Assembly (NCBI GenBank): GCA_017617495.1
Contig: JAFZWD010000026.1
Span: 1-55,173 of the forward strand
Source of the DNA: Bacteroidales bacterium
GTDB taxonomy: Bacteria > Bacteroidota > Bacteroidia > Bacteroidales > UBA932
Direction of reading: 5' to 3'
Length of the DNA stretch: 55,173 bases
In this document: positions 3,628-25,903 of the stretch, one piece after another
Numbering within the stretch: position 1 is the stretch's first letter
Layout: every line of letters starts with the position of its first letter
Translations under genes and position numbers: made by a program
Notes under the pieces: generated by a model
Told to the model about the DNA's origin: nothing
What the model saw: the letters and a program-made list of their open reading frames with translations, nothing else
The model's database searches: none

Positions 3628-3637
3628 TGAAATCATT

Positions 3638-4939: not shown

Positions 4940-4979
4940 CGTTTTTCTTAAGTTGCTGAGAGGCAGCGTTTTACCAAAA

Positions 4980-5006
4980 ATCGATGCTCCAAAATGGAGC
5001 ATCGAT
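4980..5006 (-). terminator. Terminator of the purine operon
   Basis: A perfect 12-bp stem (4980-4991 with 4995-5006) has an AAA loop. On the minus strand it is followed by TTTTTGGTAAAA. It may also stop the plus-strand lipoprotein transcript. Confidence 0.75.
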
Positions 5007-5053
5007 TATAAGGAACTATCTGATAATCTGACAGTTAGGAAAAACGCCAGATG

Positions 5054-6379: not shown

Positions 6380-6390
6380 TGCTCAAAAGA

Positions 6391-7122: not shown

Positions 7123-7157
7123 AAAATGTAATTTATGAAAGTAATATATAAAAGGTT

Positions 7158-7694: not shown

Positions 7695-9045
7695 TATTTT
7701 CGAGCCTGTTAACTTCGAAGTCCACGGACTTGTCGCCCTGTGCGTTCTTGCCGAACTCATAGTCCTTGCCGGGCAGAACGGCATTCAGGATGATACCCAC
7801 AAGTGCGCCGACTGCAAGACCGGAGAGCTTGGTGAAGCCGAGGTCGAGGGAACCGGCAGCGCTGTAGGAGATACCGATGGAGAGCACGAGGATGAGCGCC
7901 ATGATGAGAACGTTGCGGGAAGACTTGAAGTCCACCTGGTTCTCCACCACGTTACGCACACCGACTGCCGAAATCATACCGTAGAGCACCAGTGAGACGC
8001 CTCCGATGGTGGCTGCGGGCATTGCGCCGATGAGGGCGGAGAACTTCGGGCAGAAGCTCAGGATGATTGCGAAGAGGGCGGCGATGCGGATCACGCGGGG
8101 GTCGAACACCTTGGTGAGGTTCAGGACGCCGGTGTTCTCGCCGTAAGTCGTATTGGCGGGGGCGCCGAAAAGGGAAGCCAGCGCGGTTGCGAGACCGTCG
8201 CCAAGGAGGGTGCGGTGCAGGCCGGGATCCTCAAGATAGTTGATGCCGGTGGTGGAGGAGATGGCGCACATGTCGCCGATATGCTCCATCATGGTAGCGA
8301 GCGAAATGGGGATGATGGCGATGATGGCGGCCACCACGAGGCCCCAGTTAGGGTTCGAGAAGACCGACATCGCGGTGTTCTCCCACTTGACGGGCATTCC
8401 GATCCAGGCGGCGTCCTTAACCGCGCTGAAGTCGCACAGTCCGAAGCAGGCGGCCACCACATAGGAGCCGAGCACGCCGAGCAGGATGGGGATGATCTTG
8501 ATCATGCCCTTGCCCCAGATGTTGCACACGATGATGATTACGATGGCAAGCAGGGCAATCCACCAGTTCTGGCCGCAGTTGTTGATGGCGGAGCCGGAAA
8601 GGATGAGGCCGATGGCGATGATGATGGGTCCCGTTACGATGGGAGGGAAGAAGCGCATCACCTTCTTGGCGCCGAAAGCGGCGAAGAGGCCGGCGAGGAT
8701 GAAGTAGATGAGACCTGCGCAGAAGACTCCGATGCAGGCGTAGGGGAGTGCCTGAGCCTGGGTGAGACCTCCGGCCATGCCCATCTGCACTACCGTGGCA
8801 TAACCTCCGAGGAATGCGAAGGAGGAGCCCAGGAACGCGGGGACGCGAAGTTTGGTGCAGAGATGGAAGATGAGAGTTCCGAGACCTGCGAAGAGCAGGG
8901 TTGCGGACATGGAGAGACCTGTGATTACAGGTACCAGGACAGTGGCTCCGAACATTGCGAACATGTGCTGGAGTCCGAGCGTGAGCATCTTGCCGCCACC
9001 TAAGGTGCGGGCATCGTAGATTGCTTCAATTTGTTTTTTTGCCAT
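7687..9045 (-). CDS. uraA: Uracil/xanthine permease of the NCS2 family (UraA-like)
   Basis: Proton-coupled inner-membrane nucleobase importer. Residues GLQHMFAMFGATVLVPVITG match the opening of UraA, followed by VPAFLGSSFAF. The transport-site motifs MMEHIGD and NTTYGENTGV correspond to the UraA glutamates. 452 residues with about 14 membrane segments. Closely related members move xanthine instead, and its place after guaA makes xanthine possible. It is encoded 24 nt after guaA in the same operon. Confidence 0.85.
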   Translation of the reverse strand: MAKKQIEAIYDARTLGGGKMLTLGLQHMFAMFGATVLVPVITGLSMSATLLFAGLGTLIFHLCTKLRVPAFLGSSFAFLGGYATVVQMGMAGGLTQAQALPYACIGVFCAGLIYFILAGLFAAFGAKKVMRFFPPIVTGPIIIAIGLILSGSAINNCGQNWWIALLAIVIIIVCNIWGKGMIKIIPILLGVLGSYVVAACFGLCDFSAVKDAAWIGMPVKWENTAMSVFSNPNWGLVVAAIIAIIPISLATMMEHIGDMCAISSTTGINYLEDPGLHRTLLGDGLATALASLFGAPANTTYGENTGVLNLTKVFDPRVIRIAALFAIILSFCPKFSALIGAMPAATIGGVSLVLYGMISAVGVRNVVENQVDFKSSRNVLIMALILVLSIGISYSAAGSLDLGFTKLSGLAVGALVGIILNAVLPGKDYEFGKNAQGDKSVDFEVNRLENNE

Positions 9046-9069
9046 ATAACTAAAAATTTTTGATGGTTT

Positions 9070-10599
9070 TTATTCCCATTCAATGGTTGCGGGCGGTTTG
9101 GAACAGATGTCGTAGACCACCCTGTTCACGCCTTTTACGCTCCTGATGATGGCATCGGAAACCGAAGCCAGGAATTCGTAGGGGAGGCGAGCCCAGTCGG
9201 CGGTCATGCCGTCCACCGATGTCACAGCCCGTAACGCTATGCAGTTTTCGTAAGTGCGGCCGTCGCCCATCACGCCAACGCTCTTCACCGGAAGAAGGAT
9301 TGCTCCCGCCTGCCAGATGGTATCGTAGAGCCCCTCGCGGCGCAGTGCGTCAATGAACACTGCGTCCGCCTCCTGAAGTATTGCAACCTTCTCCGGGGTA
9401 ACCTCGCCGAGGATCCTGATCGCCAGGCCGGGGCCAGGGAAAGGATGCCTGCCGAGAATCAGCGGGGGAATGCCGAGGGCGGCACCCACGCGTCTTACCT
9501 CGTCTTTGAAGAGTTGCCTCAGGGGCTCCACCACCTTCAGTTTCATGTCTTCGGGAAGTCCTCCCACATTGTGGTGGCTCTTGATCGTGGCGGAAGCTCC
9601 GGGAACCGCGGACGATTCAATCACGTCCGGGTAGATGGTTCCCTGGCCAAGCCAGCTTACGTCTTTTATCTTGGAGGCCGCTTCGTTGAACACTTCCACG
9701 AAGTCGCGGCCGATTGTCTTGCGTTTCTTTTCGGGGTCGGTAACTCCGGCAAGGTCGCCGAGGAAGCGCGCCGAAGCGTTTACCCCGGTAACGTTGAGGC
9801 CCATCCCCTTATAGGATTCGAGAACGGAGGCGAACTCGTCCTTGCGGAGCAGTCCGCTGTCCACGAAGATGCAGTGGAGCTGCGCTCCGATGGCTTTGTG
9901 CAGCAGCACTGCGGCCACCGTGGAATCCACTCCGCCGGAGAGGCCCAGCACCACGCGGTCCTTCCCGATCTGCGCCCGGAGATGCGCCACCGTGCTCTCG
10001 ATGAAGTTCTCGGGAGTCCAGTCGGGAGCGACTCCGCAGATACCCAGAACGAAGTTTTCCAGGAACCTGGCGCCGAATTCGCTGTGATGCACCTCGGCGT
10101 GGAACTGTATGCCCCAGATAAGGCTGTCGCCGATGCGGAAGGCGGCGTTGTCCACCGCGTCCGTGGATGCGAGCATCCTGAAGCCTGCGGGCAGGTCGGT
10201 GATGGTGTCGCCGTGGCTCATCCACACGCGGCTGTCGGCTGGGATGCCTTTCATAAGGGGATCCGACGCGTCCTTTACGTGGAGTTCGGCGCGGCCGTAT
10301 TCACGGCTGCCTGCAGGGGCTACGGTGCCGCCCGACTTCCATGCAAGCCACTGTGCTCCGTAGCATATTCCAAGCACGGGAACGCCGCAATGCTCGACGT
10401 CGAGCGCGGGGGCGGGGGCTCCTTCCTCGCGTACGCTGGAGGGGCTTCCGGACAGTATTATTCCCTTGACGGAAGGGGAGAGCTCAAGCTGCTTGTTGAA
10501 AGGTACAATCTCGCAATAGACATTGAGTTCGCGTACCCTGCGCGCAATCAGTTGGGTGTATTGCGAACCGAAATCGAGTATCAGTATCTCTCCGCTCAT
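9070..10599 (-). CDS. guaA: GMP synthase (glutamine-hydrolysing)
   Basis: Amidates XMP to GMP. The class I glutamine amidotransferase domain covers about residues 1-190 ([15 protein letters not shown]; nucleophile in [10 protein letters not shown]; His/Glu in [11 protein letters not shown]). The ATP-pyrophosphatase domain follows, with P-loop [13 protein letters not shown], and then the dimerisation domain ending PPATIEWE. 509 residues, a normal length. The start overlaps the guaB stop by 4 bp, so IMP to XMP to GMP is encoded as a coupled pair. Confidence 0.98.
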
Positions 10600-11684
10600 T
10601 TGTTGTAGTTGGGTGCAGGTTTAGCTATAGTCAGGTCGTGGGGATGGTTTTCGATGACGCCGTTGGCTGTGATGCGGACGAATTTTGCTGAATGGAGGGC
10701 ATTCAGGTCCGCGGCGCCGCAGTAACCCATGCCGCTGCGGATACCGCCTTCGAGCTGGTAGATGATATCGGCCACCTTACCTTTGCAGGGGACGCGTCCC
10801 ACTATGCCTTCGGGGACTAGTTTCTTGGCACCCGTCTGGAAGTAGCGGTCCTTGCTGCCGGCCTCCATCGCGTCGATGGAACCCATTCCACGGTATATCT
10901 TGAATTTCTTTCCGTTCTTGAAGTCCTCGATTATTTCGCCGGGGGCTTCATCCGCTCCGGCGAAGAGGGAACCGCACATCACAGTGGAAGCACCGGCCGC
11001 GAGCGCCTTGACAATGTCTCCGCTGTAGCGGATTCCTCCGTCGGCGATGATGGGAACGCCGCTGCCCGCCGCCGCGTCCACCGCATCGAAGATGGCGCAG
11101 AGCTGGGGAACTCCCACTCCGGCGACCACGCGCGTGGTGCAGATGGAGCCGGGGCCGATGCCGACCTTGACGGCATCCGCGCCTGCATCGATCAGGCATT
11201 TGACGCCCTCTGCAGTAGCTACGTTTCCGACCACTATATCCGCCTTTATGCCGGCCTTCTTGAGTCGCTTCAGGGCATTGACGACACCTTTGCTGTGTCC
11301 GTGGGCGGAATCCAGCACGAAAGCGTCGGCACCTGCCTTCTGGAGGGCTTCGGCCCTCTCGAGCACGTCGGCGGTAATGCCCAGGGCGGCAGCCACCTTG
11401 TAGCCCTGCGAATGGACTTTGCGCACTTCGGCGGCCTGCGCTTCGAGGGGCATATTCTTATGAATAACCCCTATTCCACCTGCTTTTGCGAGCGCTGTGG
11501 CCATAGGGGCTTCAGTAACTGTATCCATCGCAGCCGACACCAAAGGAAGGTCGAGGAAAATATGTCTTGTAAACGAAGTTTTGAGGGAGACTTCCCTAGG
11601 AAGCACTTCAGACCAGGCTGGCACGAGCAGAACGTCGTCGAAAGTCAGTGCTTCTTTGATGATTCTTTCTTGATTGACCGGCAT
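10596..11684 (-). CDS. guaB: IMP dehydrogenase lacking the CBS (Bateman) module
   Basis: NAD-dependent oxidation of IMP to XMP, the committed step to GMP. ATG 11684 gives [20 protein letters not shown]. The catalytic loop GPGSICTTR places the nucleophile at Cys182. The flap dyad Arg-Tyr is in KDRYFQ and the C-terminal [12 protein letters not shown] is normal. The protein is 362 residues against roughly 485-490. The missing part is exactly the paired CBS domain normally inserted after [10 protein letters not shown]; here [17 protein letters not shown] bridges the gap. CBS-free IMPDHs are known, and lose the Bateman-mediated nucleotide control. First gene of a six-gene operon with a perfect promoter. 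Confidence 0.95.
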
Positions 11685-11702
11685 AATACTAACTTCAATG
11701 GG

Positions 11703-11734
11703 CAAAATTAGACAAAAAAACCGCGACTGCAAAA
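11703..11734 (-). promoter_or_regulatory. Promoter of the guaB operon
   Basis: On the minus strand TTTTG (11730-11734) and TAATTTTG (11703-11710) are separated by 19 nt, an ideal Bacteroidota promoter. The -33 element lies in the apical loop of the htpG terminator. The predicted start leaves about a 12-nt leader. Confidence 0.75.
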
Positions 11735-11744
11735 TGCGCCGCGG
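11714..11744 (-). terminator. htpG terminator overlapping the guaB promoter
   Basis: Minus-strand stem CCGCG/CGCGG (11740-11744 with 11721-11725), plus three inner pairs GCA/TGC, is followed by seven T residues (11714-11720). Confidence 0.65.
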
Positions 11745-11780
11745 ATTTTTCTCAAAAAAGTTATCAACAATTTCGGGTCT

Positions 11781-13646
11781 TTATTTCAACAGGTCTTCGC
11801 TCCGTGCGATGAACTCGCTGAGTGCCTTGCCTTTAAGCATTCCGTTGGAGAGAAGGGCGAGGTCGATAACCTGACGGAGCAGGGTGTTTTCGGCTGCATC
11901 CTTGCGCCCGTCCCAGATCTTGTGGATGAGGGGATTCTCCATATTTACCTTTATATTATAGGAGGCGGGCATCTGGCCGTAGAAGTTGAGACCTCCGCCG
12001 AGCGCGCTCATATCGCGGTAGCGGCGCATGAACTCGCTCTGGGTAATCACCACCGGCGCAGCGGTCTCGCCCAGGTTCTCGGGCTCCACGTACCACTCGC
12101 TTCCTTCCGGCAGGGCCGCCTTGAACATCTCCTCGAGGGCTTTCTTGTCCTCGTCCGCCATCTCGGGCTTAACCTTGTCGGCGGTAGGGATGAGGTTGTC
12201 GGTGGCATCCGAATCCACGCGGGCGAAGCGGGTGTCCTTGAGCTTCTGCTCCAGCAGGTTCACAAAGTGGGCGTCCAGTTCGCAGTCCATCAGCAGCACG
12301 TCCCAGCCCTTGTTCTTGGCCGCCTCTATCTGCGCGTACTGCGCCTCGGCGTCGGTAGCGTAAAGCATAACCACCTTCTTGTCCTTGTCGGTCTGGGCGG
12401 GCTCGACGGCCTTGCGGTAGTCCTCGAAGCTGAAATACTTGCCGTCGGTGTTCTTGAGCAGGGCGAAGTTCATGGCGCGCTCTGCGAACTTCTCGTCGGA
12501 GAGCATGCCGTACTCGATGAAGAGCTTGATGTTGTCCCACTTCTGCTCGAACTGCTCGCGCTGCTCCTTGAAGATCTCCTCGAGCCTGTCGGCCACCTTC
12601 TTGGTGATGTAGGTGCTTATTTTCTTTACGTTTGCGTCGCTCTGCAGATAGCTGCGGCTCACGTTAAGCGGGATGTCGGGGGAGTCGATGACGCCGTGCA
12701 GCAGGGTGAGGAAGTCCGGCACTATGTTGTCCACGTGGTCGGTGACGAACATCTGGTTGCAGTAGAGCTGGATCTTGTTCTTGTCGATGGACATACGCTC
12801 CTTGATCTTCGGGAAATAGAGCACACCAGTAAGGGTGAAGGGGTAGTCAACGTTCAGATGAATCCAGAACATGGGTTCTTCCTCGAAGGGGTACAGGGCC
12901 TTGTAGAAGTTCTTGTAGTCCTCGTCCTTGAGCTCCGAGGGGGCCTTGGTCCAGATAGGGTCGATGTCGTTGACCACGTTGTCCTCGTCCTTCTCCACCT
13001 CCTTGCCGTCCTTCCATTCGGTCTTCTTGCCGAAGACTACGGGCACCGGCATAAACTTGCAGTATTTGCCCAGAAGGCCGGCTATCATGCCCTTGGCAGC
13101 GTATTCTTCGCTGTCCTTGTCGAAGTATACGGTAATGACGGTGCCGCGGTCGCTCTTGTCGCAGTCTTCCATCTTGTACTCGGGGCTGCCGTCGCAGGTC
13201 CATTTGACCGCCTTGGCGCCTTCCTGCCAGCTGAGGGTTTCGATGGTGACCTTCTTTGCCACCATGAATGCCGAGTAGAATCCCAGCCCGAAGTGGCCGA
13301 TGATGTTCTGATCCTTGTATTTCTCGAGGAACTCGCCTGCGGACGAGAAGGCTATCTGGTTGATGTACTTGTCTACTTCCTCCTCGGTCATGCCGAGGCC
13401 GTTGTCGATTACCTTGAGGGTTTTCTTCTTCTCGTCGAGCTCTATATGAACCTTGAGCTCGCCGAGTTCGCCCTTGAACTCGCCGCTGCCCGCCAGGGCC
13501 TTGAGTTTCTGGTCGGCATCCACTGCGTTGGCCACGAGCTCGCGCAGGAATATCTCCTTGTCGGAATAAAGGAACTGTTTGATGACCGGGAAGATGTTTT
13601 CGGTGGTTACGCCGATTTTCCCTTTCAGTGATTCTGTCTTAGCCAT
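11781..13646 (-). CDS. htpG: Molecular chaperone HtpG (Hsp90)
   Basis: ATP-dependent cytoplasmic chaperone of the Hsp90 family. ATG 13646 gives MAKTESLKGKIGVTTENIFP. The GHKL ATPase domain shows FLRELVANAVDADQKLK, DNGLGMTEEEV, GHFGLGFYSAF and a GTVITVYF strand. The middle and C-terminal dimerisation domains complete 621 residues. The ATP-site helix reads VANAVDA where many bacteria have ISNASDA, a variation seen in Bacteroidota. Two inverted repeats lie between this gene and the upstream HAD gene, and a terminator follows. Confidence 0.97.
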   Translation of the reverse strand: MAKTESLKGKIGVTTENIFPVIKQFLYSDKEIFLRELVANAVDADQKLKALAGSGEFKGELGELKVHIELDEKKKTLKVIDNGLGMTEEEVDKYINQIAFSSAGEFLEKYKDQNIIGHFGLGFYSAFMVAKKVTIETLSWQEGAKAVKWTCDGSPEYKMEDCDKSDRGTVITVYFDKDSEEYAAKGMIAGLLGKYCKFMPVPVVFGKKTEWKDGKEVEKDEDNVVNDIDPIWTKAPSELKDEDYKNFYKALYPFEEEPMFWIHLNVDYPFTLTGVLYFPKIKERMSIDKNKIQLYCNQMFVTDHVDNIVPDFLTLLHGVIDSPDIPLNVSRSYLQSDANVKKISTYITKKVADRLEEIFKEQREQFEQKWDNIKLFIEYGMLSDEKFAERAMNFALLKNTDGKYFSFEDYRKAVEPAQTDKDKKVVMLYATDAEAQYAQIEAAKNKGWDVLLMDCELDAHFVNLLEQKLKDTRFARVDSDATDNLIPTADKVKPEMADEDKKALEEMFKAALPEGSEWYVEPENLGETAAPVVITQSEFMRRYRDMSALGGGLNFYGQMPASYNIKVNMENPLIHKIWDGRKDAAENTLLRQVIDLALLSNGMLKGKALSEFIARSEDLLK

Positions 13647-16389: not shown

Positions 16390-16611
16390 ATGTTTTGGAC
16401 ACTCGAATTAGCAAGTAGCCTGGACGACGCTCCATGGCCTGCGACAAAAGACGAACTCATCGACTACGCCAACCGTTCAGGCGCCCCCGGTGACGTTATC
16501 GAGAACCTCAAGGAACTCGAAGACGACGGCGAAATATACGAAACCATCGAGGACATCTGGCCCGACTATCCTACCAAAGAAGATTTCTTCTTTAACGAGG
16601 AAGAATATTGA
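16390..16611 (+). CDS. Small acidic DUF2795 protein, host of the island insertion site
   Basis: 73 residues, very acidic, with MFWTLELASSLDDAPWPATK and the closing FFFNEEEY. The pattern (LIDYANRSGAPGDVIENLKEL) matches DUF2795, a small Bacteroidota protein of unknown role, perhaps a nucleic-acid or protein binder. The last seven codons, including stop, are repeated with synonymous changes at 19371-19391, just before a terminator, on the far side of the accessory island. The gene therefore appears to have had its 3' end rebuilt by the insertion while its protein stayed intact. Confidence 0.85.
   Translation: MFWTLELASSLDDAPWPATKDELIDYANRSGAPGDVIENLKELEDDGEIYETIEDIWPDYPTKEDFFFNEEEY
16591..16611 (+). 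repeat. Terminal repeat 1 (attL-like) at the DUF2795 3' end
   Basis: TTTAACGAGGAAGA followed by ATATTGA encodes FNEEEY-stop. The first 14 bases are identical to 19371-19384, and it is partly matched at 17359-17376. Confidence 0.65.
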
Positions 16612-16644
16612 TTTGATAATATATTGAAAATCAATAAACTACAA

Positions 16645-16675
16645 AACTGCCAAGGTTGATTCCTTGGCAGTTTTT
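16645..16675 (+). terminator. Intrinsic terminator after the DUF2795 gene
   Basis: An 11-bp stem AACTGCCAAGG/CCTTGGCAGTT with a 6-nt loop is followed by TTTTT. It lies inside cassette 1, so the cassette brings its own terminator for the host gene. Confidence 0.85.
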
Positions 16676-16734
16676 GGTTATTCAAGCACTTTGGGACTAT
16701 CCCTGAAAGAAAAGGAATAGTAAGTAATAATTGC

Positions 16735-16742
16735 TATCTTTG
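16735..16742 (+). promoter_or_regulatory. -7 box of the DUF4279-like gene
   Basis: TATCTTTG, a perfect match, ends 4 nt before ATG 16747, predicting a leaderless mRNA. Confidence 0.55.
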
Positions 16743-16746
16743 TATC

Positions 16747-17229
16747 ATGACTACTACTCGAGTTTATATTGTCTTCTACACTGGCAGGAAAATGGATTTC
16801 CAGGCAATCTCCAAGTTGGCTGGAATAGAGCCAACAAACATAGAGGTCAAGGGAGAACAACAAAGGGTTCGGATTAGTAAGCATAACTCTTTTGAGTATC
16901 ATTTGCCAGCATCACATGGCAAGATTGTGCAAAGACAGTATAACAAATTGATGAGAGCAATAAAGAACTCCAAGCAATTGGGAGAATATTGTAAGGCTCA
17001 TGGCATCAGGGTTTATGTACAAGTTGTGATTGATGGTATCACTGACACTTACACATTCCCTGTTCTTCACATGGATAAGAAGTTCATTTCATTTCTTGCC
17101 GATTTGAATAATGCCGAGGTCGATTTCGACATCTATACTGAACCCTGGGACAAAGAAGGAGACGATTACAAACAACCTGCAATAGTCCTTCCCTCTGGTG
17201 AGTGTCTATACAAGATAAGTCAGGGATAG
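16747..17229 (+). CDS. DUF4279-like protein, cassette 1
   Basis: 160 residues. An N-terminal strand-helix (VYIVFYTGRKMDFQAISKLA) is followed by GIEPTNIEVKGEQ, resembling the opening of DUF4279 proteins (a strand, then a helix, then G-I-x-P-T). A mid-protein helix and a VYVQVVIDGITDTYTFPVLH beta region complete it. DUF4279 is found in accessory loci and is sometimes proposed as an immunity family; the function is not established. The start is 4 nt after a perfect -7 box. The next in-frame Met (residue 16, position 16792) is an alternative. Composition is AT-rich against its surroundings. Confidence 0.6.
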   Translation: MTTTRVYIVFYTGRKMDFQAISKLAGIEPTNIEVKGEQQRVRISKHNSFEYHLPASHGKIVQRQYNKLMRAIKNSKQLGEYCKAHGIRVYVQVVIDGITDTYTFPVLHMDKKFISFLADLNNAEVDFDIYTEPWDKEGDDYKQPAIVLPSGECLYKISQG

Positions 17230-17250
17230 TAAAATAGGGAGTTACCATGT

Positions 17251-17378
17251 CAATTAGAGGCTCTTAGCCTGCCTCAGACTTCCCCAGTGGCTATCCGAGT
17301 TTTTGAACACAAGTGTAATTGCCTGATAATAACCAGATTACAGACTTCACTCCATATATTCGCGGAGGAATATTAGGT
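17251..17378 (+). repeat. Cassette-end element, copy 1
   Basis: Non-coding, between the DUF4279-like stop and cassette 2. It opens with a small hairpin (AGGCT-CTT-AGCCT, 17258-17270), continues with CCTGCCTCAGACT and TGGCTATCCGAGTTTTTGAA, and ends TTCGCGGAGGAATATTAG. It aligns with 19252-19391 at roughly three-quarters identity by eye; the first 42 bases of the core differ at only about six positions. Confidence 0.65.
17359..17376 (+). repeat. Terminal repeat 2 (internal att-like site)
   Basis: TTCGCGGAGGAATATTAG is a diverged counterpart of the DUF2795 terminal sequence and sits at the end of cassette-end element copy 1. Confidence 0.45.
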
Positions 17379-17636
17379 AGTTAACTCTCTGAAATACAAG
17401 AATTTAAGCGCATCGGGTGTGATTCTATGAGTCATGACCGATGGTCTTTTAAGGACATGGAGGGACAGGTTGACGCATTTTCGTTGCAGGCTTTGAGTTG
17501 GTATCAAATTGTTACCAACAGAAAATGGTCTCACCCAAAACTATGCGGTTTAATGAACAAAAAGAAATTTCCTTTCGTTTTGTTTAGTATAATTAACAAA
17601 TTTTGATTACCTTTGCGTTTGTAAAACAAGGATATA
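17379..17636. other. Non-coding head of cassette 2
   Basis: 258 bases with no convincing gene. The 59-codon frame from ATG 17427 to TGA 17606 has no recognisable domain and runs up to the -7 box of the ATPase gene. Otherwise only the promoter at 17608 is seen. Confidence 0.5.
17608..17615 (+). promoter_or_regulatory. -7 box of the DUF4143 ATPase gene
   Basis: TACCTTTG, a perfect match, lies 21 nt before ATG 17637. Confidence 0.55.
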
Positions 17637-18848
17637 ATGGACTTGATTTCAAGACCCAACTACTACTCCAAGTTGGAGAAGCTTCTCGGAAAGGGAGTTC
17701 TGATTGTCCTCACCGGCCAGCGCCGTGTGGGGAAAAGCTATGTGATGAAGGAGCTTGTGGCCCGTAAGCAGCAGGATCCGAATGCCAATGTCATCTATAT
17801 AGATAAGGAGAAGACAGCCTTTGATACGATTGCAACATATAAGGACCTCGTCTATTATGTGGATGAGCGCCTGAACAAATCAAAGCACAACTACCTTCTT
17901 ATAGATGAAGTTCAGGAAATCGAAGAGTTTGAACGTGGCCTTAGAAACTACTACAACGAGTCTTATATAGATGTGGTAGTCACCGGTAGCAATTCGGAAA
18001 TCCTTTCCAGTGACTTGGGGACGATGTTGTCCGGCAGGTATGTAGAGGTCTTCATCCAAGGACTGAGTTACCCGGAGTTTCTTGAATTCCATGGTCTTGA
18101 GGATGGCGAGGCGGCCATGAACAAGTACATTAATTACGGTGGCCTTCCCGGACTGCGTCCCTTCGGACTGGACAACCCGGAGACCGTCAATGACTATCTC
18201 CAGGGCGTGTATAACACCATCTTGGTTAAGGATATTATTCGTAGGAAGAATATCCGCAATGTGCCCTTCCTAGAGAATCTTATCCTCTTTATTGCCGACA
18301 ACATCGGCAAGCCAATGTCGGCCACCAGTATCCAGAATTACATGGCTTCCAATGAGAGTGAGGTATCAAAAAACCTGATCCTCAAATATATGAAAGCCAT
18401 AACCGAGGCGTATCTGGCCGCATCTGTTCCCAGGTATAACATTCATGGAAAGAAGATCTTGGAAACAAACGACAAGTTCTATTTTGGCGATGTGGGCATA
18501 CGCAATTTCATTGTCGGAGGACGCAGGGCGAATGACATCGAGAAGATTGTGGAGAACCTGGTGTATCAGCAAATGGTGCGCCTTGGCTATGAAGTCAAGG
18601 TGGGACAGCTTTACAGCACGGAAATTGACTTCGTAGGAACAAAAGGAGATGGAATAGTCTATGTTCAGGCTGCCTATCTCATTACCGAGGAGAAGACCTT
18701 CAATCGGGAATTCGGCAACCTGCTTCCTATCAAAGACAACTATCCCAAGTATGTAATCTCAATGACTCCCTATATGGATTCTTCCAAGTGGGAGGGTATT
18801 ATTCACATACCGTTTGTGGAATTCCTGAAGAACGGTTTTAGTAAATAA
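17637..18848 (+). CDS. AAA-type ATPase with DUF4143 domain, cassette 2
   Basis: 403 residues. Walker A is TGQRRVGKSYVMKEL near residues 27-34, Walker B is YLLIDEVQEIEEFE, and sensor-like VVTGSNSEIL and LSGRYVEVF follow. The C-terminal half carries the DUF4143 fold (FYFGDVGIRNFIVG, LVYQQMVRLGYEVKVGQ, EIDFV), which contains a restriction-endonuclease-like core. Such ATPases are abundant in Bacteroidota and archaea, are often horizontally transferred, and their role is unknown. The barstar gene follows after 7 nt, so the two are probably co-transcribed. Confidence 0.9.
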   Translation: MDLISRPNYYSKLEKLLGKGVLIVLTGQRRVGKSYVMKELVARKQQDPNANVIYIDKEKTAFDTIATYKDLVYYVDERLNKSKHNYLLIDEVQEIEEFERGLRNYYNESYIDVVVTGSNSEILSSDLGTMLSGRYVEVFIQGLSYPEFLEFHGLEDGEAAMNKYINYGGLPGLRPFGLDNPETVNDYLQGVYNTILVKDIIRRKNIRNVPFLENLILFIADNIGKPMSATSIQNYMASNESEVSKNLILKYMKAITEAYLAASVPRYNIHGKKILETNDKFYFGDVGIRNFIVGGRRANDIEKIVENLVYQQMVRLGYEVKVGQLYSTEIDFVGTKGDGIVYVQAAYLITEEKTFNREFGNLLPIKDNYPKYVISMTPYMDSSKWEGIIHIPFVEFLKNGFSK

Positions 18849-18855
18849 CGGGCAG

Positions 18856-19230
18856 ATGAAGTTCAAAACTATACAGATAGATTGTAAGGGTCTCAAGGAG
18901 AAAGAACTGCATATGGCATTCAAGGAAAAGCTAGGATTCCCCGATTTTTATGGAATGAATGGGGATGCTTTGATTGATTGTCTGTCATACCTACGTGAAC
19001 CAGAAGCTAAGATGACAAAGGTCTTTCTGGAAGAAGACGAAGTGCTTTTAATTAAGAGTAATGACCTGTCAAAAGCCAAGTTTGATGTAAGTCACTTGGT
19101 TGACATTGTTGAATGGGTAAATGCAAGAGGACTTGCCTGGTTTAATAAACCATTTGTGTTCTTATGCCCAATAGAGTCCAATATTCTTTCCGTCGAGAGG
19201 GCTCGTATGGAGGAGCTACAATCTAAATAG
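18856..19230 (+). CDS. Barstar-family RNase inhibitor, orphan immunity protein
   Basis: 124 residues. The barstar signature is clear: a first strand, a helix with ELHMAFKEKLGFPDFYGMNGDALIDCLSYL, and an acidic surface patch (EEDEV). Barstars bind and neutralise barnase-type secreted or contact-delivered RNases. No barnase-like toxin gene lies in the window, so it is an orphan inhibitor, as found in acquired immunity arrays. It ends 21 nt before cassette-end element copy 2. Confidence 0.88.
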   Translation: MKFKTIQIDCKGLKEKELHMAFKEKLGFPDFYGMNGDALIDCLSYLREPEAKMTKVFLEEDEVLLIKSNDLSKAKFDVSHLVDIVEWVNARGLAWFNKPFVFLCPIESNILSVERARMEELQSK

Positions 19231-19251
19231 AGATTGGATAGTTCATTTGAA

Positions 19252-19391
19252 TTATTAGTGTCAGCCGGTGGCTAATAACCTGCTCCAGACTACCCTAATG
19301 GCTATCCAGAGTTTTTGAACACAGTGCTAACATATTGATATTAAACAGCTTACAGAAACTAATCTATATATTTAACGAGGAAGAGTACTAA
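19252..19391 (+). repeat. Cassette-end element, copy 2
   Basis: Non-coding. It opens with a small hairpin (AGCC-GGT-GGCT, 19263-19273), continues CCTGCTCCAGACT and TGGCTATCCAGAGTTTTTGA, and ends with TTTAACGAGGAAGAGTACTA, the DUF2795 terminal codons. It aligns with 17251-17378. Confidence 0.65.
19371..19391 (+). repeat. Terminal repeat 3 (attR-like): duplicated DUF2795 3' end
   Basis: Reads as FNEEEY-stop in the same frame as the true gene end at 16591-16611, with three base differences before the stop region, and abuts the terminator that probably served the original gene. Confidence 0.65.
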
Positions 19392-19420
19392 AAAAAGCCC
19401 GTTTTGCGACGGGCTTTTTT
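19391..19420. terminator. Bidirectional terminator before trmH
   Basis: An 11-bp stem AAAAAAGCCCG/CGGGCTTTTTT (19391-19401 with 19410-19420) encloses the loop TTTTGCGA. It was probably the original terminator of the DUF2795 gene. Confidence 0.9.
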
Positions 19421-19447: not shown

Positions 19448-20248
19448 ATGCCGGTCATACATATCAATTCGCTTTCGGATCCGGGCGTGGAGATATTCTC
19501 CTCGCTGACCGAGGCGCAGCTGTGCGACAAACGTCTGGTCGCCGAGGAATTGTTCATTGCGGAGAGCGGCAAGGTCATCGACGTTGCCCTGGATGCCGGA
19601 TACGAGCCATTTGCGATGCTTACCGAAGAAAAGCACCTGACCGGCATAGCGGCCCGGGCCGTGCAGAGGGTAGGGGACATCCCCATCTATGTCGGAAGCC
19701 ACGACCTGCTGAAACAACTTACCGGTTTCCCGATGATACGCTGCGTCCTGTGCGCGATGCGTCGGCCCAAACTGCCGTCCGTCGAGGAGGTCCTTCGCAA
19801 CGCACGCCTTGTGGTGGTGATAGACAGCGTTGCCAACACCACCAATATCGGAGCCATTTTCCGTTCTGCGGCCGCCCTGGGGGTAGATGCCGTGTTGCTG
19901 ACGCGGACGACCTGCGACCCGCTGAACCGCCGCGCTGTGAGAGTCTCCATGGGAACAGTGTTCCAGGTGCCCTGGACGTGGCTGGACGCTCCGGTCGACT
20001 CCCTCCACGAATATGGCTTCAGGACCGCCGCAATGGCCCTGACGGACCAGAGCATTACGCTGGACGACCCGAGCCTGAAAAACATCGACCGCCTGGCGCT
20101 GATAATGGGCACCGAGGGCGATGGCCTGCCGCTCGAGACCATCTCCGAAGCGGACTATGTCGTCCGCATTCCAATGAAAAACAATGTGGATTCCCTGAAC
20201 GTGGCCGCCGCTGCCGCAGTGGCGTTTTGGGAACTGCGGCGCAGGTAG
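19448..20248 (+). CDS. TrmH/SpoU-family RNA 2'-O-methyltransferase
   Basis: 266 residues. The N-terminal substrate-binding region precedes a SPOUT trefoil-knot domain from about residue 110. Its three SpoU motifs are NTTNIGAIFRSAAALG (motif 1, catalytic Arg), LALIMGTEGDGLP (motif 2) and IPMKNNVDSLNVAAAAAV (motif 3). The family methylates a ribose 2'-OH in tRNA or rRNA using SAM; which nucleotide cannot be told. It has its own promoter and is convergent with the GH16 gene, 3 nt between stops. Confidence 0.9.
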   Translation: MPVIHINSLSDPGVEIFSSLTEAQLCDKRLVAEELFIAESGKVIDVALDAGYEPFAMLTEEKHLTGIAARAVQRVGDIPIYVGSHDLLKQLTGFPMIRCVLCAMRRPKLPSVEEVLRNARLVVVIDSVANTTNIGAIFRSAAALGVDAVLLTRTTCDPLNRRAVRVSMGTVFQVPWTWLDAPVDSLHEYGFRTAAMALTDQSITLDDPSLKNIDRLALIMGTEGDGLPLETISEADYVVRIPMKNNVDSLNVAAAAAVAFWELRRR

Positions 20249-20251: not shown

Positions 20252-21085
20252 TTACTCCTGCTTGCGCTGATAGACGCGGACCCAGTCGATGCGGAGTTCT
20301 GAGGGGAGCTGGGAGGCGGTGATTTCGCCGACCCATTCGCCGCCGAGCTGGTTGGAAAGAATCAGATAATAACTGTAGTCCGCAAACGGCCACTGGTATT
20401 CCACACCCTCCATTTTCGAATAGGTGTAGGTCTTTTCGTCGTTGACAAACATGCAGATCTTGTCTTCCCAGATTTCCACCGCGTAAGTGTTCCAGTCCAG
20501 GCGCCTGATGCCCTTCTCTACGGAATGGGAGGTGTTCTTGTTGACGTACTGGGTATAATACGAGTGGATGGTCTGGTAGACTTTATTCTCGGAGTTGAGG
20601 TGCTCCATTATGTCGATTTCGCCGCCTTTCGGCCACTGGACATTCGCATTGGGCATCAGCCAGATGGCCGGCCAGAAGCCCTGGGCGCAGTTGAATTTGG
20701 CCCTGACTTCGAACCTGGCAAGCTTGAAGTATTTTTTGCCCTCGGTCTGCACGCCGCCAGTGACATAGGCCGTGGTTTCGCTGCCGCTGTGGTCGTTGAC
20801 CTTGCCCAGCAGCACCAGCTCGCCGTTTTCGATATATGCGAGGTCCGCCCGGTTCGGGGCCATCATATTCTGCCAGTCCGGTGTGCCATATCTGACACGT
20901 GCCCAGTTGGCGCTGTTTATTGCCGTGCCGTCGAAATTATCTTCCCAGACAAGCTCCCAGCCGTCGTCGGCCGCAGGGGCCTCGGGCTTGGAAGGAGTAG
21001 GGGGAGTCACGGTCGTGTCGGTGTCGGATTTACCGCCGCAGGCGACAATGGCCAGGGCGACGAGCATAAAATGGATTCCTTTCAT
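20252..21085 (-). CDS. GH16 beta-glucanase-like lipoprotein
   Basis: 277 residues from ATG 21085. Lipoprotein signal MKGIHFMLVALAIVAC, then a Thr/Pro-rich linker (about 22-40), then a GH16 jelly-roll. The catalytic motif is GEIDIMEHL, with nucleophile and acid/base glutamates as in E-I-D-I-x-E, preceded by FWPAIWLMPNANVQWPKG. The family cleaves beta-1,3/1,4-glucans and other beta-linked polymers; the substrate is not evident. It is divergent from the wza-wzc pair, so it could process a self-made or a foreign glucan. It has a good promoter. Confidence 0.92.
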   Translation of the reverse strand: MKGIHFMLVALAIVACGGKSDTDTTVTPPTPSKPEAPAADDGWELVWEDNFDGTAINSANWARVRYGTPDWQNMMAPNRADLAYIENGELVLLGKVNDHSGSETTAYVTGGVQTEGKKYFKLARFEVRAKFNCAQGFWPAIWLMPNANVQWPKGGEIDIMEHLNSENKVYQTIHSYYTQYVNKNTSHSVEKGIRRLDWNTYAVEIWEDKICMFVNDEKTYTYSKMEGVEYQWPFADYSYYLILSNQLGGEWVGEITASQLPSELRIDWVRVYQRKQE

Positions 21086-21092
21086 AGCAACG

Positions 21093-21124
21093 CAAAAGTA
21101 GCACAATAAAACGAGATATGCAAA
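21093..21124 (-). promoter_or_regulatory. GH16 gene promoter
   Basis: On the minus strand TTTG (21121-21124), 20 nt, then TACTTTTG (21093-21100), ending 7 nt before ATG 21085. Confidence 0.65.
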
Positions 21125-21149
21125 GTGACCGGAATAACAAAATATTTGT

Positions 21150-21157
21150 TATCTTTG
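21150..21157 (+). promoter_or_regulatory. -7 box of the wza-wzc transcript
   Basis: TATCTTTG, a perfect match. Transcription should begin near 21162-21163, at the foot of the hairpin at 21163. Confidence 0.6.
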
Positions 21158-21162
21158 CAATT

Positions 21163-21185
21163 CGGCACATTGAGGTGCCGTTTTT
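21163..21185 (+). terminator. Terminator-like hairpin at the start of the wza leader
   Basis: CGGCAC-ATTGAG-GTGCCG followed by TTTTT lies between the -7 box and the start codon (21206). It would form at the very 5' end of the transcript, either as an attenuator or as a stabilising 5' hairpin. Confidence 0.55.
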
Positions 21186-21205
21186 GTGAAACTAATAAGA
21201 CAACG

Positions 21206-22000
21206 ATGCTAAATAGAAGCAAACTCCTGATTCTGGCAGCCGCCTTCGTGGCGCTCTGCGGATGCACCACATCCAAACAGATTCTTTATTTTCAGGACAT
21301 TCAGGACCGTCAGCTCGGCAAACTCACCAACGAGTACGAGGCGATAATCAAGAAGGACGACAGGATCACCATCCTCGTGAGCGGCGCGGACAAGAGCGTT
21401 ACCGCCCCCTACAACCTTACAATAGCCGAAATCGGCCAGACGACCAGCGTCACGGATCCCGACCGCTCCACCCTCAGTTACCTGGTGGACAGCGAGGGCA
21501 ACATCGAGTTCCCCATCCTGGGCAAGATCCATGTCGAAGGCATGACCCGCAACCAGCTCGTGGAGTACCTCACCACCGAAATCGGCAAGGACGTCAAGGA
21601 TCCTATCGTGTATGTGGCCTTCCGCAACTACAAGATTACCGTCATGGGCGAAGTCAAGGCCCCCGGAACCTACACTTTCGATTCCGAGAAGGTGAACATT
21701 CTCCAGGCCCTCGGCCGTGCCGGTGACCTCAATCTTACCGCAAAGCGCGACGACATCATCCTGATCCGCGAAGTGGACGGAGTGCAGACTCATCATGTGA
21801 TCAACCTCAAGAACAGCGACATCCTGGAGTCCCCTTACTTCTATCTGCAGCAGAACGACGTGATTTACGTGCCGGCAAGCTCCATGAGGATTGCTTCCGC
21901 AACCGCAGCCACCAACCTCTGGTCGGCAGCGCTGTCCGCAGTCACCACTACCGTGTCGGTTATTTCCCTCGCCATCGTCATCAAGAACCAGAACAAGTAA
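21206..22000 (+). CDS. wza: Polysaccharide export lipoprotein, Wza type
   Basis: Outer-membrane lipoprotein that, by family, forms the export pore for capsular or exopolysaccharide. 264 residues from ATG 21206 (MLNRSKLLILAAAFVALCGC, lipobox LCGC). The Poly_export domain (YLVDSEGNIEFPILGKIHVE) is followed by one SLBB domain (YKITVMGEVKAPGTYTF) and a C-terminal hydrophobic segment (VTTTVSVISLAIVI) that probably crosses the outer membrane. Shorter than E. coli Wza, as usual in Bacteroidota. It lies 1 nt before wzc. Confidence 0.92.
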   Translation: MLNRSKLLILAAAFVALCGCTTSKQILYFQDIQDRQLGKLTNEYEAIIKKDDRITILVSGADKSVTAPYNLTIAEIGQTTSVTDPDRSTLSYLVDSEGNIEFPILGKIHVEGMTRNQLVEYLTTEIGKDVKDPIVYVAFRNYKITVMGEVKAPGTYTFDSEKVNILQALGRAGDLNLTAKRDDIILIREVDGVQTHHVINLKNSDILESPYFYLQQNDVIYVPASSMRIASATAATNLWSAALSAVTTTVSVISLAIVIKNQNK

Positions 22001-22001
22001 T

Positions 22002-24473
22002 ATGAGCGAAAATACAAATAAAACCCTTGAAAGCAGCAATCCCGAGAGCGCATCCTTCCGCGAGATATTCGACTTCGTGCTGAGGTTGAAGTGGTGGATC
22101 CTGGCAAGTGCAGCGGTGGCGTTCATCTTTGCGTTCATTTCCGTAAAGAAGCAGAGCCCCGTTTACCAGCGCACTTCCTGGATCATGCTGAACCGCGACG
22201 ACGGTTCCACCGGCGAACTCTCCATGCTCACCTCTATGACAGGTACACGCGTGCGCAAGAAGATTGACAACGAACTCTTCATCCTCAAGAGCCCCTCTCT
22301 CATGAAGAAGGTGGTCGAGGAACTCAATCTCAACACGCGCTACTACCGCATCAAGCTCCCCATCGGCGACGAGAGGCTGGCATCAGTGAGGGATTTCATC
22401 CCCATCAAGACAAGGACCGAATTCTACAAGGACAGCCCCTTCGAGTTCAAGGTGATAGCCGATTCGCTTCGCCCCAAGGCATATCTGCCCCAGGCGGCGA
22501 TGATCAAGTTCCGCAACATCGGGGAAGAAGGCAAATTCTCCGTCATCGAGGCCCGCGTGGGCAAGCATGAACTCAAGAAGAGCAAGAAGGTCTATGCCTA
22601 CGGCGACACTCTCGTGGTGGGCAGCACCAGCCTGGTGGTTTCCCTCTCCGAGGTAGGAACCCCCGATCCCAACGCCAAATACATCTGCTCCTGGGTGAAT
22701 CCCTTCAGGGCCGCAGAGGCCTTCGTGGGCAACATGACCACCGAGGTGCAGGGCAATACCAAGACCTATTCCTACCTTAATACCTGCGACGTGGTGCTCG
22801 TGAGCCTGCTCGACAGCAAGCCCCAGAGGGCCGATGACATCCTCAATACGCTGATTCTGCGCAATAACGAGGAGTCGAGGCTGTACAGCAACATGGCCAC
22901 CATCAACACCATCAACTTCATCGACGAGCGTCTCGCGGAAATTTCCGCCGAACTCGCAAGCGCCGAGGAGAGCGTCAAGGAATACCAGACAAAGAATACG
23001 GTCATCGACCTTTCTTCCCAGGCCAACCTCACCCTTTCGTCCGACAAGCAGTATCAGGACAAACTCATCGAGGTGCAGGTGCAGAAGAGGATTCTCAGCA
23101 TGATTTCGGACCAGCTGAATTCCACTCCGGCAGGGGAGTACAGGGTTATCCCTTCGAACGTTGGCGTGAGCGACGCGGGACTCAACAGCGTCATCACCCA
23201 GTACAACACCCTCGTTGCGGAGCGCAACCGCCTTATCGCGAACTCCAGCGCCAGCAACCCCCGCGTGCTGAGCATGAGCTCCTCGCTCGAAGACAGCAAG
23301 AAGGCAATCGAGGTGTCCATCAACAACCTCGCAAACGTATACACCATCCGCGAGCGTGAACTCGAGAAGAACGTGCGTCACAGCCAGAGCAAGATGTCGA
23401 CAATGCCCAAACAGCAGTACGAGATCCAGCAGCTGTCCCGCAAGCTCGAGATTATCGAACCTCTTTACCTCATGCTCCAGCAGAAGAGGGAAGAGTCCCA
23501 GATTGCAGTGTACGAGCAGGGCGACGCCTTCCGTATCATCGAGGCCTCCTTCGGAAGCCCCAAGCCGGTCAGCCCCAAGGCGGTGCAGATATACCTGATT
23601 GCCCTTATCCTCGGCTGCTGCATACCTCCCGCAACGGTGTGGCTCAGGACCAACCTGCGCACCAAGGTGGAAACCAAGAAGGATGTGGAAGACATCGTAA
23701 AGGCTCCCATCATCGCGACTCTCCCGCGCAAGCGCGAGAATGCAGGCAGCCTCATCGTCAAAGACGGCCGCGATACCTTCTCGGAGGCGTTCAGGATGCT
23801 TCGTTCCAACCTGAAGTTCCTCACCGACGCCAGGGTGCTCCAGATAACCTCGTCCATCCCGGGCGAAGGCAAGTCTTACATCTCGTCCAACCTTGCGGTT
23901 TCCATCTCCCATACGGGCAAGAAAGTGCTGCTGATAGGTATGGACCTCCGCAAGCCTACGCTGCGCAAGCTCTTCCCGGATGTGGAAGCCGGCCCGAAGA
24001 ACACCGTGGTGAGTTACCTTATCGGCCAGACCGAGAATCCTGCCGATATGGTTATCAACAGCGGCGTTTCCGAGAATCTCGACCTGATTTTCGCAGGTCC
24101 CGTTCCTCCGAACCCGACCGAACTCCTGTCCTCCGACAGGCCTGCGGCGATGATCGAGTACTTCCGCCAGCACTACGACTATGTGCTCATCGACACGACT
24201 CCCTGCATGCCGGTTTCCGATTCCATGCTGGTGAACTCGCTCGTGGACGCAACTCTGTATATCGTCCGTGCGGACCATACTCCTCTGAACCTGCTCGGCG
24301 ACATCCAGGATATGGTTGTCGGCCGTATGAAGGACCTCAGCATAATCCTGAACGACCTTGACATCGAGGCCAACAAGTACCGTTACGGTTACGGCTACGG
24401 CTATGGCTACGGCTACGGCCAGAAGCAGGGTTACGGTTACGGGTACGGAGATACCGGCAGCAAAGAGGCCTAA
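22002..24473 (+). CDS. wzc: Wzc-type chain-length regulator and tyrosine autokinase
   Basis: 823 residues. The Wzz domain begins with a membrane helix near residues 30-50 (WWILASAAVAFIFAFISV), followed by a long periplasmic part with coiled coils (ELASAEESVKEYQT) and a second membrane helix near 525-545 (IYLIALILGCCIPPATVW). The cytoplasmic BY-kinase domain has Walker A GEGKS at 621-625, Walker A' LLIGMDLRKPT and Walker B VLIDTTP. The tail (793-816) carries ten tyrosines, mostly as YG repeats, the autophosphorylation cluster. It pairs with Wza to control export. The terminator follows directly. Confidence 0.95.
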   Translation: MSENTNKTLESSNPESASFREIFDFVLRLKWWILASAAVAFIFAFISVKKQSPVYQRTSWIMLNRDDGSTGELSMLTSMTGTRVRKKIDNELFILKSPSLMKKVVEELNLNTRYYRIKLPIGDERLASVRDFIPIKTRTEFYKDSPFEFKVIADSLRPKAYLPQAAMIKFRNIGEEGKFSVIEARVGKHELKKSKKVYAYGDTLVVGSTSLVVSLSEVGTPDPNAKYICSWVNPFRAAEAFVGNMTTEVQGNTKTYSYLNTCDVVLVSLLDSKPQRADDILNTLILRNNEESRLYSNMATINTINFIDERLAEISAELASAEESVKEYQTKNTVIDLSSQANLTLSSDKQYQDKLIEVQVQKRILSMISDQLNSTPAGEYRVIPSNVGVSDAGLNSVITQYNTLVAERNRLIANSSASNPRVLSMSSSLEDSKKAIEVSINNLANVYTIRERELEKNVRHSQSKMSTMPKQQYEIQQLSRKLEIIEPLYLMLQQKREESQIAVYEQGDAFRIIEASFGSPKPVSPKAVQIYLIALILGCCIPPATVWLRTNLRTKVETKKDVEDIVKAPIIATLPRKRENAGSLIVKDGRDTFSEAFRMLRSNLKFLTDARVLQITSSIPGEGKSYISSNLAVSISHTGKKVLLIGMDLRKPTLRKLFPDVEAGPKNTVVSYLIGQTENPADMVINSGVSENLDLIFAGPVPPNPTELLSSDRPAAMIEYFRQHYDYVLIDTTPCMPVSDSMLVNSLVDATLYIVRADHTPLNLLGDIQDMVVGRMKDLSIILNDLDIEANKYRYGYGYGYGYGYGQKQGYGYGYGDTGSKEA

Positions 24474-24660: not shown

Positions 24661-24957
24661 TTACTTATCGAACTTCTTCTCCTTCGTGCGGGTGAGCTTT
24701 TCCTTCATTGCATCGACGCAGTCGGTGATTGCCTGCTCGAAGGTGTCGGCGTTGCGCTCGATGACGAGGTCCTCGCCGGGTACGTGAATCTGAATCTTGG
24801 CCTGTTTGTTCTCCGGTTCGTGGAGCAGGGACAGGGTTACATCGGCAAGGTCGCTGCCTCCCTTGAAGAACTTGTCGAGTTTTGCGACCTTCTTTTCGAC
24901 GTAAGCGACCAGTTTCTGGTCGGCGTCGAACTTGAGAGTTTTGATTTTAATCTCCAT
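24661..24957 (-). CDS. hpf: Ribosome hibernation promoting factor (short HPF/RaiA)
   Basis: 98 residues with the HPF fold: MEIKIKTLKFDADQKLVAYV, then KKVAKLDKFFKG and IVIERNADTFEQAITDCVDAMKE-type helices. The short form lacks the C-terminal dimerisation tail of long HPF. It binds the 30S decoding region in stationary phase and blocks translation. Last gene of the holA operon, its start overlapping the xer gene by 11 bp. The tRNA-Ser promoter lies just downstream. Confidence 0.93.
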   Translation of the reverse strand: MEIKIKTLKFDADQKLVAYVEKKVAKLDKFFKGGSDLADVTLSLLHEPENKQAKIQIHVPGEDLVIERNADTFEQAITDCVDAMKEKLTRTKEKKFDK

Positions 24958-25903
24958 TGTTACCTCCGTTTTTATGTGCCCTTGGATGGGCGTTGTCGTA
25001 TACGTTCTTAAGCCTTTCTATAGTGGCGTGGGTGTAGACCTGGGTTGCCGCGAGCGAAGAATGTCCGAGCAGTTCCTTTATGGAATTGAGGTCCGTGCCT
25101 TTTTCCAGGAGTCCGCTCGCCAGGCTGTGCCTGAGTACGTGTGGGGACTTGCGTCCGGTTATGCCCTGGGCACTGCCAAGTTCTTCTTTTACGGCCCGAT
25201 CCACATACACGGGGTACAGGCGGCGTCCTTTGGACGTGCGGAGCAGCGGGGTTTCCGCCGTCCTTGCCGCACCCGTAATATAGTCGGCTGCTTTCAAATA
25301 TAATGAAATTTCTTCACAAAGCGAGGGGACGAGGGGGATAATTCTCATTTTGTCGCCCTTGCCCCGGACGGAAAGAGTCCTGCGCGCGAAGTCCACCGAA
25401 GAGCAGTCCAGTGCGATAATTTCGCTGCGGCGGATGCCCGTGTCCGCCAGCATGGCGAGGATCAGCCGGCGCAGCCTGCGTTCGTAAAGGTCGTCGGCCG
25501 AAGGCCCCTTTGGCGTAGCCAGAAGCAGGTCCAGCGTATCCTGCGAAGCCCAGGGGGCGGAAGCCTCGAAATAGCGGTCGAGGGCATCTTCCCGATAGAA
25601 GACAGGAAGGCGCTTTTCAACCTTCGGCTTGGGCACCAGGCGCACCGGATTGGAGGCCATAATCCCCTTCTTGACAAGGAACTTGCAATAGCTCGAAAGG
25701 ATACTTAAGTGCAGGTTTACCGTCTTGGGCGCAATTCCTTCGGTATCAAGCAGTTCTATTTCGTAGTTGCGCACATTCACAGTGTCCGGCTCGGCCTGTG
25801 CGAAGGCCTCGAAACGCTCCAGCACCTCGCGGTACAGCGCGCAGCTGCGGGGCGAGTAACGCCTCACGCTGGAAACATAGTCTATGAATGCGTCTATTTG
25901 CAC
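24947..25903 (-). CDS. Tyrosine recombinase, XerC/XerD type
   Basis: 318 residues. The SAM-like N-terminal domain covers about 1-90. The catalytic domain shows the R-K-H-R-H-Y set: TGIRRSEI, VRGKGDKMR, SPHVLRHS, LLGHSSLAATQVYTH. Its position inside a housekeeping operon, between cca and hpf, fits a chromosome-dimer resolvase rather than a mobile integrase. Whether it is XerC or XerD cannot be decided by eye. Its start overlaps the cca stop by 10 bp. Confidence 0.93.
   Translation of the reverse strand: MQIDAFIDYVSSVRRYSPRSCALYREVLERFEAFAQAEPDTVNVRNYEIELLDTEGIAPKTVNLHLSILSSYCKFLVKKGIMASNPVRLVPKPKVEKRLPVFYREDALDRYFEASAPWASQDTLDLLLATPKGPSADDLYERRLRRLILAMLADTGIRRSEIIALDCSSVDFARRTLSVRGKGDKMRIIPLVPSLCEEISLYLKAADYITGAARTAETPLLRTSKGRRLYPVYVDRAVKEELGSAQGITGRKSPHVLRHSLASGLLEKGTDLNSIKELLGHSSLAATQVYTHATIERLKNVYDNAHPRAHKNGGNNGD

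Follow-up and report, generated by a model that had tools for sequence, protein, structure and literature searches.

The stretch analysed here, contig JAFZWD010000026.1 of a Bacteroidales bacterium (assembly GCA_017617495.1; 55,173 nucleotides in all, hereafter the window), carries a DUF2795 gene (16390..16611, + strand; Pfam E 7.9e-19), the putative insertion target, whose last codons are repeated downstream at the ends of two AT-rich modules, an arrangement that an original prediction made from the sequence had described as a possible integron-like cassette array. The core of the repeat, TTTAACGAGGAAGA, is the end of the DUF2795 gene and occurs exactly at 16591..16611 (+), where it forms the current last codons and stop, and again at 19371..19391 (+), bearing out the proposed repetition of the gene end. 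These copies, 2.8 kb apart on the same strand, are the only two in the window at no more than one mismatch, with none on the opposite strand at that threshold, and the mean over 40 shuffled windows was 0.05 matches. A third, diverged copy is present between the modules at 17359..17376 (+), as predicted, and lacks one GAR codon. We infer that the last core is the displaced original end of the DUF2795 gene; it is followed by a terminator-like hairpin from a terminator scan (19391..19420, +) and by a SpoU/TrmH methylase gene (19448..20248, +; Pfam E 4.4e-34), the flanking chromosomal gene, which has a G+C content of 60.8%.

Both modules consist of a left arm, cargo and a right end, all on the + strand. 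In cassette 1, the left arm (16612..16680) is of a type (cluster 41) found in four other loci and holds a terminator-like hairpin from the terminator scan (16643-16674), the cargo is a DUF4279 protein (16747..17229; Pfam E 1.2e-14), and the right end (17224..17358) contains the arm motif TGATAAT at 17324..17330, 28 bp before the diverged core. The left arm of cassette 2 (17377..17460, cluster 19) has a hairpin visible by eye and not listed by the terminator scan, and is followed by genes for an AAA_14/DUF4143 ATPase (17637..18848; Pfam, and PADLOC candidate PDC-S01) and a barstar-like protein (18856..19230; Pfam E 1.8e-11) and by a right end (19236..19370) with the motif variant TGATATT at 19336..19342, again 28 bp before its core. 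Pfam confirmed the cargo identities first proposed for the genes between DUF2795 and the SpoU-type methylase, and the description of the units as a gene plus an end element was likewise supported. The two right ends, placed by BLAST pair alignment and a sequence model, are related as claimed, with 73% identity over 49 bp ungapped and 76% over 102 bp by BLAST, and both match nearly the whole of the 155-position model of the end type we call family A, a match that is not independent as the two are among the 21 sequences used to build that model. The modules are also AT-rich, as had been noted, with 41.6% G+C in the interval compared to 56.6% in the window and 40.6, 45.8 and 39.2% in the three cargo genes, two of which are below 41%.

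Among 151 genomes of the genus, 109 have a DUF2795 match, as do 236 of the 247 searched across the order. Downstream DNA was taken for 58 of the 114 DUF2795 places in the genus, mainly those with contig room, which together with the window gave 59 genus loci and 650 kb of downstream sequence. At no more than one mismatch, 21 extra cores were found downstream of DUF2795 on its own strand and none on the opposite strand, and at up to three mismatches the counts were 24 and 1. Of the 37 genus loci that extend 3 kb or more beyond DUF2795, 12 hold a second core, 6 an integrase no further than 700 bp away, and 16 at least one of the two. The exact gene-end pattern, which leaves out TAG stops, occurred in 121 of 300 genus genomes, and a reversed control pattern in none among the matches listed. 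The 3′ end of DUF2795 in these relatives is an insertion hotspot, and copies of the element are present in them with different cargo between the cores, the comparison among relatives having been suggested as a check in the original prediction. The proposal of repeated insertion that restores the host gene end, as at tRNA ends, is supported by the extra cores, the arms and the differing cargo.

The distance from DUF2795 to a shared neighbour gene (391-440 aa frames, 93-97% identical) also varies, with starts 3.95, 5.8, 6.9, 7.0 and 8.7 kb after DUF2795 in five genomes and about 2 kb off in a sixth, G193 (recognised by eye), where a family A end lies between. Contigs end less than 1.5 kb downstream in 16 of the 59 loci, which may reflect assemblies broken at repeats, among other possible causes. 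Among named Bacteroidota loci, a second core was found in 6 of 61 at up to three mismatches and in 3 of 80 at up to two, and in four other Bacteroidota loci (L231, L235, L238 and L249) a 448-450 aa open frame begins 9-11 bp after DUF2795. The DUF2795 C-termini at 98 genus loci read FFFNEEEY in 82, FMWNEEEY in 9 and FFWNEEEY in 7, and the last looks like a hybrid of the other two, as expected if insertions swap the last codons.

The right ends at 53 cores not flagged as DUF2795 ends, including the diverged copy of the window, which was added by hand, were sorted by eye into families A (22, the window's type), B (13), C (4) and D (2), with 12 unassigned or spurious; the flag was wrong for one core, at 3435 in L047, where there is no DUF2795 end. 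Left arms are of many types, and in many of them a terminator-like hairpin can be seen by eye. Of 32 complete cassettes, 20 have left and right ends of agreeing type, and restoring three rows omitted at first brings the total to 35 with the same 20 in agreement; none of 20,000 permutations reached 20 (mean 10.8-11.3), the end-type groups having been defined after inspection of the data. Cassettes combining left type a with right type A (n = 15) are mostly single-gene and of similar length, 14 being 0.77-1.57 kb and one 2.8 kb, and a search of the open frames in those loci found no integrase inside them. Cores undercount the units, since further family A copies without a listed core occur in L049, L062, L075 and L130. 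L130 (G288, 3070-6045) packs four copies of the family A end into 3 kb, and just one has a listed core, so that this array holds more units than the cores show.

For the right-end motif count, the 53 cores were reduced to 47 by removing three judged spurious and three that had under 400 bp of upstream sequence. Of these 47 right ends, 26 carry TGATAAT no more than 50 bp from the core, and two control windows each gave 0 of 47; allowing one mismatch, the figures are 36 against 6 and 8. In left arms, counted after removal of a fourth spurious core, the motif occurs in 11 of 117 against 0 and 1 in controls. In the 31 right ends with the motif or a listed variant, it always stands 17, 28 or 29 bp from the core, positions about one helical turn apart, with 28-29 bp in families A and C and 17 bp in family B. 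This arrangement hints at related recombinases that would bind at different phasing. In G083, the first core after the integrase gene, 20 kb on, has the motif at 17.

Integrase genes adjoin the same gene end. A tyrosine integrase gene begins 196-429 bp beyond the core in 12 genus loci, of which two are cut by the end of the examined stretch and two by the contig end; a thirteenth integrase, that of G270, is located at the far end of the element carrying it. In an alignment of four integrases, identity to the first is only 31-33%, and the four scanned for domains, three of the 12 and the far-end one, all contain PF00589 (Phage_integrase) and Phage_int_SAM_5, with Arm-DNA-bind_5 in three. An integrase model gave nine matches at E <=1e-20 in 40 genus genomes, six of them at DUF2795 or a core copy. 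With the same model, an integrase was found in 5 of the 61 named Bacteroidota loci with 3 kb downstream (80 loci in total), of which L184 is weak and L209 is split into two frames; the named loci with an integrase include Muribaculaceae, Paraprevotella and Dysgonamonadaceae. Mobilisation genes were scanned for in two integrase-bearing elements and were present in both, with a relaxase (PF03432) and coupling protein (PF02534) in L063 (G023) and Mob_Pre (PF01076) in L195 (SW299). These neighbours, as distinct from the window itself, show the features of integrative and mobilizable elements (IMEs), namely their own integrase at a shared target and, in both examined, mobilisation genes.

Searched against 300 genus genomes, a sequence-only model of family A had matches in 41 at E 0.001. 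In 30 of these the match reached E <=1e-10, and the other 11 matched only at E 4e-7 to 8e-4, some of these places being family B ends. Outside the genus there were two borderline matches in 245 genomes (E 7e-4 and 1e-3), taken as chance, in a search with stricter filters by which weak matches are lost. In 14 stretches DUF2795 is followed on its own contig by a strong family A copy; L297, L298 and L311 carry family A with 4.1 to 5.8 kb upstream and no DUF2795, and the remaining stretches begin nearer the contig end. In L297 (G245, 5113-6066), a family A cassette follows an unrelated sigma-factor-like gene pair (by eye), away from DUF2795. The cassette is bounded on the left by a complete core, and its right side lacks one. 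Single case though it is, this suggests that strands were exchanged close to the core's 5′ edge, and the locus, a secondary insertion site, could map the crossover. The stop codon follows the left arm, with a within-group identity of 0.94 compared to 0.72.

The cargo of these cassettes recurs in other species in a different order. Bases 1-721 of the 747 in cassette 1 of the window align at 71% with a cassette of G196, and the barstar region has 78% DNA identity over 466 columns to a cassette of G087, with homology starting exactly at the ATG, such that the second module of the window looks composite. Cassettes with mismatched ends include composites, among them the G083 unit at 20343-22767, parts of which match one G097 and one G085 cassette at 95% each. 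The cargo appears to comprise immunity-like, toxin-antitoxin-like and defence-candidate genes. Larger units were also seen. One, a 5 kb cassette in L070 (G016, 288-5349), encodes FRG, PLD-like and CAP12/Pycsar-type TIR proteins and may be a defence unit of several genes at the DUF2795 end; others, in L073 (G049, 274-12045) and L131 (G228, 735-7745), are large integrase-less cassettes at the same site with helicase-like and STAND-like proteins (by eye).

We consider tandem site-specific accretion of non-autonomous cassettes at a shared DUF2795 attachment site, probably mobilised in trans, to be the best explanation, with a probability of roughly 0.75. The DUF2795 3′ end would be the chromosomal attachment site, at which tyrosine integrases would recombine the core of a circular element with the gene end, and each insertion would leave an intact gene end on the left and a spare copy on the right. 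Because this right-hand spare end can serve as the next target, units would pile up in tandem. The site would be used both by integrase-bearing elements and by units of about 1 kb like the modules of the window, which consist only of a pair of end arms, in most cases a terminator-like hairpin, and a cargo of one or two genes; these small units would most likely be excised and inserted in trans by the integrase of a transiently present element, with the cargo as the selected part. What the genomes themselves show is recurrence, strand bias, matched ends, reshuffled cargo and integrase genes at this gene end. More tentatively, and with slightly less than even odds, family A may be a distinct minimal class of integrase-less, usually single-gene cassettes, mobilised in trans by tyrosine integrases specialised for the 3′ end of the near-universal DUF2795 gene and collecting in an integron-like manner on double-stranded phage-type sites with the core in a host gene, through which a lineage could reassort its immunity and defence genes about 1 kb at a time.

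Several observations weigh against accretion at DUF2795. Neither a second core nor a nearby integrase was present in 21 of the 37 genus loci with at least 3 kb downstream, and the stretch from the last core to the shared neighbour gene is itself variable, from about 0.3 to 5.6 kb, so that the differences in neighbour-gene distance are not all due to cassettes. An empty version of the DUF2795-trmH junction, which the original prediction had proposed to look for, was not found: relatives of trmH occur in 4 of 150 other genus genomes (E 1e-60), none with a core in the flanking DNA retrieved. The counts for the motif and its spacing are not independent, because ends of the same family are relatives. 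The core interior is no more associated with the left arm than are the upstream codons, both associations being equally weak, so that codon variants do not place the crossover. The suggested co-occurrence of a tyrosine recombinase with the element held in part, as integrase genes lie beside the same gene end elsewhere, but at the level of genomes it was negative, a DUF2795-type integrase being present in 2 of the 20 genomes that have a family A match (weak in the case of G016) and in 6 of the 20 that have none; co-occurrence therefore ties no helper to the cassettes. Since most of the tested family A genomes have no DUF2795-type integrase, the family A cassettes look non-autonomous. The window's own genome (G000), which is only 74% complete, likewise has no clear DUF2795-type integrase, and its one weak match to the integrase model and the one Phage_integrase protein in the window are both, by judgement, Xer-like. 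Mobility is deduced from genome comparison, with neither a circular form nor transfer observed.

A rather doubtful alternative is that the cassettes are relics of decayed integrative elements, known as cis-mobilizable elements (CIMEs), and that family A was once active and lost its integrase. A route of tandem stacking, decay and loss of the integrase with the att sites kept is described in the part of an IME review consulted here (PMC5704250), and the cassettes are CIME-like in having, as sequence features, cores on both sides and matched arm types, with no integrase or transfer genes among the open frames and domains of the window interval. Some ends are truncated or diverged, as at 17359-17376 in the window and in several partial family A matches, and one left arm type is common to cassettes and an integrase-bearing element, that of cassette 2 (cluster 19) occurring also in the G023 element of L063. 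The likeness to CIMEs and to tandem accretion of IMEs and integrative and conjugative elements (ICEs), as that part of the review presents them, lies in integrase-less units that keep both att ends and stand in tandem at a gene end with integrase-bearing relatives sharing the target (PMC5704250). The units described here differ in being about 1 kb, with dedicated matched ends, usually one gene, and DUF2795 as the target. Random decay would be expected to leave more varied units than the a/A cassettes, whose similar size and mostly single genes argue against simple decay from an ICE or IME.

Another reading is that homologous recombination, acting at conserved DUF2795 ends and at the end elements that cassettes have in common, spreads them, with no site-specific enzyme now involved. 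This could account for the composite cassettes, both the barstar homology that begins at the exact ATG and the G083 unit with its matches to two cassettes. We regard it as improbable, as integrase genes adjoin the same gene end, and the G245 family A cassette away from DUF2795, with its left core only, is not easily given by exchange at DUF2795.

Integron cassettes form arrays of one gene and one recombination site, and the window resembles them in its gene-plus-site array, most genes pointing the same way. It is nevertheless very improbable that this is a genuine integron-type system, with an integron integrase and sites that fold as single strands. None of 21 genomes had an integron integrase above the TIGR02249 cut-off, in a search with no positive control and with G000 incomplete, and weak matches, none above the cut-off, also occurred in all 14 control genomes. 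The small hairpin predicted at the start of the element is visible by eye, but no consensus fold of right end and core was found in the 21 copies, and two junctions folded no better than shuffles on either strand (z-scores +0.5 to +1.9). As the units also have two different ends, in the manner of an integrated island, and a host gene end as their target, the integron reading was dropped and the likeness is a loose one. An old chance duplication of the gene end, with which the presence of only two intact cores in the window would agree, has almost no probability, since many genomes carry additional cores after DUF2795 with cargo that differs among them; the pattern that would have favoured it, identical modules in the same place everywhere and no copies elsewhere, was not what the relatives showed.

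Staphylococcal cassette chromosome (SCC) elements insert at rlmH through Ccr serine recombinases. They are much larger than the units of about 1 kb described here, which are associated with tyrosine integrases and DUF2795. Composite SCC at orfX/rlmH is similar in that parts are piled up at one conserved gene, also without recombinase genes, as in an SCC-like region without ccr described in the portion consulted of one report (PMC3637587). The recombinase-associated acquired interbacterial defence (rAID) system, as far as the consulted part of its description goes, shares with the window its occurrence in Bacteroidales, rows of short AT-rich immunity-like genes, conserved intergenic sequences, and a tyrosine recombinase in the wider system (PMC12247911). 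In contrast to rAID arrays, no recombinase heads the window array, the interval containing no recombinase frame and DUF2795 lying upstream instead, and the units end in a copy of the DUF2795 gene end (PMC12247911). For rAID, two or more co-directional genes below 41% G+C are looked for; of the three cargo genes here, all on the + strand, two lie under that value. NBU1/NBU2-type mobilizable elements of Bacteroides are alike in having a tyrosine integrase at a gene 3′ end, their targets being listed as the tRNA-Leu and tRNA-Ser genes, and DUF2795 is absent from the targets in the portion of that review's table covered here (PMC5704250). In open-access literature that names DUF2795, integration is not the subject, by title and abstract opening. 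Integrase-bearing and integrase-less elements stacked in tandem at a single gene end have been described before (PMC5704250), and what is new, so far as seen, is the DUF2795 target and a minimal, genus-wide cassette family with matched ends.

If accretion at DUF2795 is correct, mobilizable elements would have a common point of entry in one short, highly conserved gene end, present in 236 of 247 genomes of the order, and so would the cassettes of about 1 kb, which appear to exchange immunity-like genes. The DUF2795 end would then be an easy place in which to look, in uncultured gut bacteria, for new genes of defence or immunity. It may also account for some of the breaks in assemblies at this gene, and it would offer a testable system for the movement of integrase-less cassettes.

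Two other candidates for the repeated region were rejected. One was a structured RNA, for which all Rfam matches, located near the last core and its terminator, stayed below threshold; the other was an Xer/dif-type site, for which the core lacks convincing inverted arms by eye. The earlier statement that no integrase is present holds for the interval but not for its surroundings, as a Phage_integrase-domain protein is encoded 5.6 kb off at 24947..25660 on the − strand. This protein, in an open frame of 440 aa with polysaccharide-export-like genes (by eye) nearby, is probably a housekeeping recombinase.

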